Shown: positions 59,047-62,699 of the stretch, one piece after another
Position numbering within the stretch: position 1 is the stretch's first letter
Layout: each line of letters begins with the position of its first letter
Assembly: GCA_025677835.1 (NCBI GenBank)
Contig: JAIXMR010000011.1
Location: forward strand, 77,501-141,500
Source of the DNA: Sporodiniella umbellata
Lineage: Eukaryota > Mucoromycota > Mucoromycetes > Mucorales > Rhizopodaceae
Direction: 5' to 3'
Length of the DNA: 64,000 bases
Made by a program: the position numbers and the translations under genes
The notes under the pieces: model-generated
The model's input: only the letters and a program-made list of their open reading frames with translations
Databases searched by the model: none
What the model was told of the DNA's origin: nothing

Positions 59047-62000
59047 ATGCGGTGTATCTACACATTGCAGGAAAGTGTCAAGGAAAGCTTTTCTTTTTTT
59101 TTTTTGCAAAAAGAAATGGAAGAAGCAATAAGCCAGTTGGAAGTTTTAGTAAGAATAACTAATAAAAAACTAGATATAAAAGATATAATGAAAGAACAAA
59201 AACTTTTAGGGCATTACCAGAACTCAAGCCAAAAAGGCCTTAGCTGTAAGATGACTACACTTTTTAAGAAAAAACATAATGTGTAATGTCAGCTTCAATA
59301 GAGATACAACAATGATGTTTCACGTGCGGCTGATTTCATATTCTCTGGAAACTACATTAGCGATGGTGAAGAGAATGAGATTGAGCCTACTGAAGATCCA
59401 GTAAATGCATAGTTCTATTACATGCTAGAATTGACTTTTTCTTAGAACCAACAAAGTGAAGCTCTGGCCCAAAGCCTTAGCCTTGAAGAGCAGCACAAAC
59501 CTATTGAGTCGACAGTCTGTAAGTTTCAAAAGCAATGGAGTGAATTGTAATTGTTTTTTTGATTCAGCAAACCAACCTACAACTACCAACCCTTCTGATA
59601 TGAGTCTTGTCGTGTACAAAGATTCAAAAGAAGCTTTCGACCAACAGGTGCCTGAAAAAAACGACAACGTAAAGGACTCAATCAGCAATTTCTCACTGAC
59701 TTGGTGGAAAAATCCAGAAAATCCATCCGAAAGAAAGGCCATCGATTATATGTAACAAAAAAAGAAAGAATAGAGAAGACCTTTACTGAAAAAAAATCTG
59801 AAAAATGTAGACCTATTGGGCTAAGGCCTCCTGCATATAGTTTCAACTATGCACCTATTGTTGTTCAAGCGTTGTTTCATATTACTTATTTTCAATTTGC
59901 TGTCGCATCGTTTCAGCCTACACCCCCTAATTGGGGACAACCCGCCAACTATTGGAAAGGAAAAGGGGAGCATGTTCCTGGCTACATTACAATAAAAAAG
60001 CCAAGGCAACCAAAAGAACAAAACGAAAAGAGATTGGAGGGCTACAACGATATCGACGAAACCTTTATTCAGGAAGACCTTGCCGAGGACTCGCAGGAGG
60101 AAGACGTCGAAGTAAAAGCAATACCCAAGTGCTTACAAGCCATCGGTGAATTACAAAAGATTTTTGCGTTTTTGGGCAATACAAAGAGAGCCTACGGAAG
60201 TGTTGCAGACTTTACAAAAGCTTTGAATACAAAATCGAACTTGTGGGATGAAGACGATATTTATTTTGAATGTAATTTACTTTATTTTCGACAAAAAGTG
60301 TTGACTGGAGAATGAGTTACTGAATCGAGTTATATTTAGCTTTTTTGGATTTATTAATTAACCCTATTGTTGGATGTGATGAGTTTTCAGCTACGTCTTT
60401 ACCTTTGGAACAGAAGCTTAAAAGGTAAGATATATGTTTCTATTTGACATATTAAAACGATTCCAAAAGCATGTTTACAATGAACGCAAAAATTGAATGT
60501 GGCGACAAGTGTGAGGAAGAGGAACTCTACTACCTTATATCCTTTTTATACGAATACACATATTACACTGACATTCTACACATCCTTTTGTTTTTTCCTT
60601 AACTTTTCGCTCGCTAGTACAACATTAACCCAGAAAGTGGCTCCACTTCTTTTTACGACAGCCTTGACCCTCTTGTATTTGAGAGCTACGACTCAGAAAT
60701 CGATGCTGAGTACCCATATAAATTTACAAGCTTTGAAAAGATATCACCTTTGGTTTTTATTGTACTGGAAAATAGATACAAAGTAGATTACGAGTATAGG
60801 ATTGATAAGACCATCTATATGGATAGATACATGCATGAGAATAAAGACAAAGTAATAGATGGATTTTTAAAAATGCAATCCTACAGAGCGGACATAAACA
60901 CTGCCCAAAAAAAGATTGAAGACCTTAAAGAAAAACACCATGGCTACAGTAAAGGTGACTTGTTGAATGAAACTTTAATGTATTTTCGAGGCAAGGAAGG
61001 AAGTGACAAGGAAACCGACCTACTGCTTTCTGTCATAGAAGATATCCAGCAAAATATATCTGATAGTCTTCAAAAACATGAGTCTTTGATGAAAGCACAG
61101 AAGAAAGAAATATATAGTGTGTTTGATAGAGACGATATGAAAATTAAACCCTATACTCTACGTGCAACGTTTCATCATGATGGAAAAAGCGGGACTGGCC
61201 ATTACTGGGCTTACATTTGGGTGGAAGAAGTAGGGGGAAATCTATTGGATGTGTCATCAGAAGGAGGGTGGTTTAAGTTTTGCGACGCTCAGGTGACCCC
61301 TGCTAAGGAGGAAGATCTATTCAATGACCCTATACCGCCCTTTTCTTTGATGTATATAGATGAGTCACTTCCAAAATTTACAAAGGCTCAAATATACAAA
61401 CAGCTTCCTGAGGAACTAAAGGTAATGTATACTGTCATGTAGAAAATGCGCTAAAAGACATTTGTGTTTAGGAATTTGTCCGGAAGGACAACGAGATGTT
61501 TGAACAAGAACTACACAGCTATAGCCAGCCATTCAGTACATCTTATCCTGTGTATGACGAACAATGGACCACAGAAAAAACAGAAGAGTACCAAATAGAA
61601 CAAGCGACCTTTGATGATTCAAATTCAACTGGGACTGCTGTTGGACAAGCCAACACAGAGGCTGAGACTCCTAAGTTTATGGGAAATGGCTATACTAAGC
61701 TCAAAGAGCAAGCCAACAGAAAAATTTTAGATGTTTCAAGCTATAGCTGCGACGACTACAGAATATTAATGAGGTAATGTTATATTTCCTTCTGTGTACG
61801 CTTCTATTCTAACTCGTATGCAGTTTTGAAGTATTCTTAGCTAAAACACAAAACCAACAAGGACTTGAGCATCTTTACTTACTATACCTAAGTGTAGGTT
61901 GTATTACATAATAGCATACAATATAAACCGATATTTTGATAGGGTCCTGACGAAAACGGAAATCAAACTGTAAACGAAATGGGATCTAGATACGACGAAT

Positions 62001-62699
62001 ATTTGAAATTCGCTTGGGACCAATACCAATATTTGCAAAATCTTGGTCAAAAAGTATCACGAGCGCTGTGTCACTTTGTCAGAAGAGAACACCAGCTTGC
62101 TTTGAGAGCTTTTCTCGAAGTAAAAAGAACTGAAGTATCTTGGAAGACTCAAATAATGCTCAATTTGGATCTACATGCCTATTCCAGTATAGACGTCATT
62201 TCTTTTAGACCTTTATGTGAGCTCTATGGGAAAAAATGCTTGGAGGTTGGTTTAAACTAACGCAAATGTGTTTTGTTCACTAAGTACTTTCTTGATCATT
62301 GTATAGATACTAAATAGGCAGGCATTCAATAAAGCTTTAAACATATCTTACAGGTCTAGAGGGCTGGAAGATGCCCTCCGTATAGCTCATCAGGCACACG
62401 CAATGATTGGCCCTGACGCTATTTCAACTGATGATACATATGCCTCTATGCGAGAGTTATGGCTGAGCTTTGGTGAACAAGGAAACAACGACAAATTAAC
62501 AAGCATCCAAACTGATCTACTAAATACGCTTGTTATGACTTATCTTGAAGGTCAAAGTGGGCAAAGTGTGGACCCTATGGATAAAACTGAAGTTCCTAAC
62601 GCTGATATTGATGAGAAGCCAGAAGAAATGTCTCCGTGGATGTACTATAAACAGATTTGTGAGGAGGCAAAGGAAGCCTTGAGTAAGGTCGAACTGTAA
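59047..62699 (+). CDS. USP25/28/Ubp2-like ubiquitin protease homologue lacking the catalytic Cys
   Basis: Twelve exons: 59047-59148, 59302-59400, 59446-59518, 59568-59751, 59811-60271, 60340-60424, 60470-60536, 60621-61421 (or from 60618), 61472-61773, 61824-61893, 61943-62245 and 62307-62699 (about 979 residues). The N-terminus is UBA-like (MEEAISQLEVLRYNNDVSRA) and then has a UIM (SEALAQSLSLEEQ). The catalytic domain starts PIGLR, but the Cys box reads PPAYSFNYAPIVVQALFHI where N-T-C-Y-x-N-S is expected. The His box is intact: RATFHHDGKSGTGHYWAYIW, then GGWFKFCDAQVT with the Asp. An insert of about 130 residues of charged helix (MQSYRADINTAQKKIEDLKE onward) precedes the His box, as in USP25/28. 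The 60537 intron has minor-spliceosome signals. The start is uncertain; an in-frame 39-nt intron at 59075-59113 is possible. Confidence 0.8.
60537..60620 (+). other. U12-type (minor spliceosome) AT-AC intron
   Basis: The 5' end is ATATCCTTTTT, the consensus of U12-type introns. A perfect branch-site match TTCCTTAACT lies at 60595-60604. The intron can end at TAC (60620, AT-AC) or three bases earlier at TAG (60617, AT-AG); both keep phase 0. No GT donor in exon 7 gives an in-phase junction with a well-supported following exon. Some 60 other introns read in this window all have GT (once GC) donors. Confidence 0.82.

Follow-up and report, generated by a model that had tools for sequence, protein, structure and literature searches.

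The Ubp2/USP28-like gene and its intron

The window considered here, a stretch of 64,000 nucleotides from one contig of Sporodiniella umbellata, a mould of the Mucorales and the family Rhizopodaceae, carries on its forward strand the main part of a Ubp2/USP25/28-like gene (59796..62699), for which eight exons were modelled, the 5' exons lying further upstream. The spliced product matches the Pfam UCH family (4.3e-09), retrieves the proteins P0001-P0030 in a protein search, vertebrate USP28 among them, and corresponds to the S. umbellata protein BY458DRAFT_502232 (100% identity over 62% of the query). The catalytic Cys box, in the N-terminal part of the gene (59796-60271), reads GLRPPAYSFNYAP, without the Cys of the USP28 motif NIGNTCW, and the window gene is in this respect unlike an active USP/UCH deubiquitinase; the same Cys is missing in all eight Mucorales relatives that cover the box, and the His box is kept. 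The predicted protein looks like a conserved inactive deubiquitinase, and on this reading of its residues we file the gene as Ubp2/USP28-like and not as an active protease.

Within this gene, the coding exon at 60470..60536 ends in EEEELYYL in phase 0, YYL being common to the Mucorales homologues, and the coding exon at 60621..61421 contains the His box of the UCH fold (HHDGKSGTGHYWAY). The 84 nt that separate them (60537..60620, forward strand) are almost certainly a U12-type (minor) AT-AC intron. The 5' splice site, ATATCCTTTTT (60537..60547), includes an exact ATATCCTT of the pattern RTATCCTT, with C at both +5 and +6, and its CCTTTTT is complementary to the AAAAAGG of the U11 5' end, as read directly from the two sequences. 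The branch site, TTCCTTAACT (60595..60604), contains TTCCTTAAC, an exact instance of TTCCTTRAY whose TCCTT pairs with AAGGA of the U12 gene; 17 nt lie between this motif and the exon, the usual distance of U12-type branch sites to the 3' end being about 10-20 nt. The 3' splice site is TAC (60618..60620), and the unspliced reading frame meets a TAA inside the branch site. A preliminary description of the locus had placed the AT start and the exact branch site at these same positions, where the sequence is as it described, and its proposal of a U12-type AT-AC intron is borne out by the motifs, by the junction that homology favours and by the minor snRNA genes of the genome.

Choice of the splice junction

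Every open GT-AG, GC-AG, AT-AC and AT-AG pair of splice sites around the intron (n = 87) was tried, the joined protein of each was scored against eight homologues and the pairs were ranked by mean score. The junction 60536/60621 is spanned by 11 of the 23 Mucorales-type relatives, and the eight homologues were taken from these eleven (five named Mucorales proteins and three others); the Rhizopus models were left out of the scoring because their annotation breaks at the junction. The AT-AC pair 60537-60620 preserves the protein frame and ranks first (mean 167.8), as it also did in a narrower first run of 33 open pairs.

The likeliest alternative is that the same U12-type intron ends at AG 60617 (AT-AG), either always or side by side with the AC end, which would add one Tyr to the protein. 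A TAG does end there in frame, 3 nt upstream of the TAC end at 60620, and among the 12 introns of this kind accepted across the genome (see below) an AG lies within range in ten, in step with the chosen AC in three, so that the AC ends of the set (TAC in 10/12, CAC in 2/12) are partly a choice. The AG end, however, has a mean score of 156.8 and falls below the AC end for each of the eight homologues, because no gap is needed to align the Mucor-type YYL-TISLDKTMNSF with the YYL-NINPESGSTSF of the AC end; AC also beats AG for 8/8 homologues in a CLASRP-like gene (L016), and for two of the 12 introns (L021 and L032) there is no AG within range. We therefore regard an AG end as improbable and place the start of the next exon most likely at 60621 rather than 60618, between which the preliminary description had left the choice.

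It is more improbable still that the cell uses a U2-type GT-AG intron whose boundaries lie elsewhere and that the U12 motifs are coincidental. The public Rhizopus models P0001, P0003 and P0004 do drop residues around the junction, as if other sites were used, but the best of the nine open GT-AG pairs reaches only rank 21 of 87 (139.6 vs 167.8) and brings in extra residues without counterpart. Not one exact motif pair arose when the window was randomised 60 times by a first-order Markov model, and 60537-60620 is the only exact pair in the window itself; with up to one mismatch per motif, the window has four matches, this intron included, vs a randomised mean of 1.2.

Annotation of the gene around this AT-AC intron is uneven among relatives. 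The public Sporodiniella model (P0002) begins with MYFRGKEG, well downstream of the intron, and eight models from other genera (P0010-P0015, P0019 and P0021), one of them a Mucor, likewise start downstream, so that the annotation break may have a cause other than the intron; other Mucor proteins cross the junction unbroken. Introns of this kind may spoil gene models built on GT-AG rules, for which the evidence here is mixed. Separately, the Mucor-like ORFs P0017, P0018, P0020, P0022 and P0023 run through the junction 60536/60621, an indication, if these five are plain ORFs, that the intron is missing there. The history of the intron may be one of gain in Rhizopodaceae or of loss in Mucor.

AT-AC introns across the genome

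Genome-wide, the strict pattern ATATCCTT-N22-52-CCTTRAC was found at 13 places vs 2 for the reversed pattern, and its GT version at 3 places vs 1; RTATCCTT-N53-83-TCCTTRAC added 4 places (three AT, one GT) vs 1 reversed. Flanking reading frames were judged by eye, and on this criterion 12 of the 16 AT-type places and none of the four GT-type places were accepted as introns, with homology across the junction in 9 of the 12 (seven by Pfam, UBP2 and CLASRP). Places not retained are C118, C140, C176 and C190 for the AT type, the last (G000:C190:16964-17039, L076) being a further ATATCCTT...TCCTTAAC pair whose flanks show no convincing reading frame, and C121, C123 (two places) and C175 for the GT type.

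Besides the window intron (C13), the accepted introns lie in genes of varied function. Pfam domains span 7 of the 10 junctions submitted: DNAPKcs_CC3 in a DNA-PKcs-like gene (C8), LSM12_LSM in LSM12 (C50; 29.9 bits, just over the cut-off), PEP5_VPS11_N in VPS11 (C133), IBN_N in a gene with an importin-beta N-terminal domain (C163), which we take to be IPO9/Kap114-like, Prefoldin in a prefoldin gene (C165), presumably PFDN5-like, DCP2 in DCP2 (C180) and RNB in an RNB-domain gene (C188) that we assume to be DIS3-like. The other three junctions submitted, C101, C126 and the AG-end version of C177, gave no Pfam match. For C177 (L016), the CLASRP-like intron, the reading frame is backed by homology, the AC end scoring above the AG end for all eight homologues; C101, C126 and C168 were accepted from open reading frames only. 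A PDB search with the L016 product returned three insignificant hits (best E 1.1). Among the CLASRP-like ORFs of relatives, P0041, P0043, P0044, P0045 and P0046 include several that start at or beside the junction, as if an intron of unspecified type sat there, and P0036-P0040 cross it.

All 12 introns are identical from +1 to +10 (ATATCCTTTT) and in TCCTTAAC, an identity that the search builds in within its own motifs and that at +9 and +10, both T, it does not; their lengths are 70-92. With about a dozen such introns in the genome, the window intron is not the lone fossil that the preliminary description had thought possible; the same text had counted a single U12 intron, which is right for exact matches in the window and too few for the genome.

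Minor-spliceosome RNAs and proteins

The genome contains one locus each for U11 (69.6 bits) and U6atac (63.7 bits), both above the Rfam cut-offs, and one U12 candidate which, at 43.1 bits, is below its cut-off of 53. This candidate is short (117 aligned nt vs 151 model positions), its 5' part is well matched and a Sm-like AAUUUUUU is present. The expected recognition sequences are found in the alignments: AAAAAGGGC at the U11 5' end, GAAAGGAGAGAA in U6atac and AAUGAGUAAGGA, together with AAUUUUUU, in U12. When folding was compared with shuffled sequences, U11 had a z of -2.74, and U12 (0.18) and U6atac (-1.08) folded hardly better than their shuffles.

U4atac was not found in the genome, the best hit (L014) having 21.8 bits (E 1.66) and lying antisense to coding sequence. 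This hit has a stretch seemingly complementary to U6atac but was rejected, as its opposite strand holds an 84-codon open frame that resembles a conserved protein, presumably an aldo-keto reductase, and as the U4atac search also gave hits in 11 of the 14 prokaryotic genomes used as controls. Of the four snRNAs that the preliminary description had proposed to look for, three are accordingly present, U12 below cut-off, and U4atac was not detected. Its proposed search for the 48K protein yielded a single zinc-finger hit (L057) of 18 bits vs a cut-off of 21.1, with no convincing gene around it, and the CENATAC profile had no match in the genome, a test that was silent in the controls too; both tests are weak because the genes were searched exon by exon.

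The U11, U12 and U6atac genes support, at the level of the genome sequence, the earlier proposal that this lineage keeps the minor spliceosome and, with it, minor splicing. They also bear on the idea that the AT-AC intron is removed by the major (U2) spliceosome, which we consider very unlikely: U2-type AT-AC introns do exist, as reported for sodium channel genes, with a G at +5 (PMC2831892), whereas in the window intron both +5 and +6 are C and the U12 branch site is complete, in a genome with minor snRNA genes.

As a U12-type intron, 60537-60620 would be expected to follow the course that is established for minor splicing. The U11 5' end would pair with the CCTTTTT of the 5' splice site, GUAAGGA of U12 would pair with TCCTTAAC with the branch A bulged, U6atac (GAAAGGAGA) would then replace U11, and the intron would be removed at the TAC ending at 60620, joining ELYYL to NINPESG. 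We infer that the snRNA genes are transcribed, that splicing takes place in this way and that a U4atac and minor-specific proteins are present.

Apparent co-variation of U12 and the branch sites

The Sporodiniella U12 reads GUAAGGAUAA and the Rfam consensus GUAAGGAAAA, that is, GGAUA here vs GGAAA in the family. The base that pairs with the changed U12 position is the one before UCCUUAAC. This base is A in 8 of the 12 accepted introns and is preceded by T in all eight, their branch sites reading TATCCTTAAC; the window intron is not among them, having T at the co-varying position. The chance of TA in 8/12 is 1e-7 to 3e-5, and that of A alone 0.0009 to 0.006, for a pattern noticed before being tested and against four backgrounds from the window, two of which rest on fewer than 40 sites. 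In duplex energy, UAUCCUUAAC favours this U12 (-8.9 kcal/mol vs -6.5 for the consensus) and UUUCCUUAAC favours the consensus (-8.3 kcal/mol vs -6.5 for this U12).

The change in U12 and the TATCCTTAAC branch sites would together restore pairing, an apparent co-variation in which the branch sites may have shifted from TTTCCTTAAC to TATCCTTAAC with a lengthening of their pairing with U12. Such a change on both sides is a naturally occurring compensatory pair with which the rules of U12 pairing could be tested.

A possible set of AT-AC introns only

All 12 accepted minor introns read as AT-AC. With the looser RTATCYT...TCCTTRAY, 52 places were found vs 33 for a reversed control, ten of them accepted introns; 17 of the 52 start with G (C197, a copy of C16, being collapsed) and none of these was accepted. 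If the true share of AT-AC were 8/18, as read from PMC2846911 for Phycomyces, 12/12 would have a chance of about 6e-5, and at the Blastocystis share of 77% (PMC10639083) about 0.04, both values being plain arithmetic that assumes GT-AG minor introns to match the motifs equally strictly. GT-AG minor introns may match them less strictly, so that degenerate ones were perhaps missed. We tentatively suggest, giving it a little less than an even chance, that minor splicing has been pared down here to AT-AC introns only and that U12 and the introns changed together. The likeliest course would be that GT-AG minor introns were preferentially turned into U2-type introns or lost in the lineage. The GT-AG subtype is reported to be the one preferentially converted (74 GT-AG vs 5 AT-AC converted clusters; PMC2831892), and a purely AT-AC-looking set is what such a bias would leave: an AT-AC-only state would be its natural end, GT-AG introns having been converted or lost and the less readily converting AT-AC introns remaining.

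Comparison with other lineages

That Mucorales retain minor splicing has already been published (PMC2846911, PMC4133162), so retention itself is not new, and the window adds a genuine U12-type AT-AC intron from a lineage known to have kept this machinery. The interesting part of the result is the genome-wide AT-AC-only set together with the change in U12 and the branch sites; in the open PMC literature we found nothing on Sporodiniella introns, an AT-AC-only set or U12/branch-site co-variation. The case also suggests that genes dedicated to the RNAs of minor splicing can be maintained in a genome where very few introns need them.

Rhizopus oryzae and Phycomyces blakesleeanus, also Mucoralean, have U12-type introns including AT-AC ones and minor snRNAs (PMC2846911), but the sets predicted there by two scoring methods are mixed (1 AT-AC and 2-3 GT-AG in Rhizopus, 8-9 AT-AC and 8-12 GT-AG in Phycomyces), whereas in Sporodiniella 12/12 accepted introns read as AT-AC by exact patterns, which are stricter than that scoring. 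The short Sporodiniella U12 agrees with reports of a shortened U12 in basal fungi, Lichtheimia among them; in Lichtheimia corymbifera, as in Sporodiniella, U12 is short and no U4atac was detected, and there stem III of U12 is atrophied and the second half of U6atac divergent (PMC4133162). Rhizophagus irregularis, another fungus with minor introns, has all four minor snRNAs reported and 205 introns of animal- and plant-like consensus (PMC10639083), in contrast to about 12 in Sporodiniella with A before TCCTTAAC in 8/12.

Outside the fungi, the stramenopile Blastocystis has a strong AT-AC bias (196/253) that is not exclusive, and its minor introns number in the hundreds, half of them in phase 0, with a median length of 39 bp vs 70-92 in Sporodiniella (PMC10639083). 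A literature search for minor introns in the human counterparts of these genes gave nothing useful; the LSM12 minor intron of Drosophila and human is GT-AG (PMC2831892). Of the 12 Sporodiniella introns, five are in phase 0 and the other seven in phase 1, with phase 2 absent, counts that deviate somewhat from the order 1 > 2 > 0 reported for minor introns (PMC10639083).
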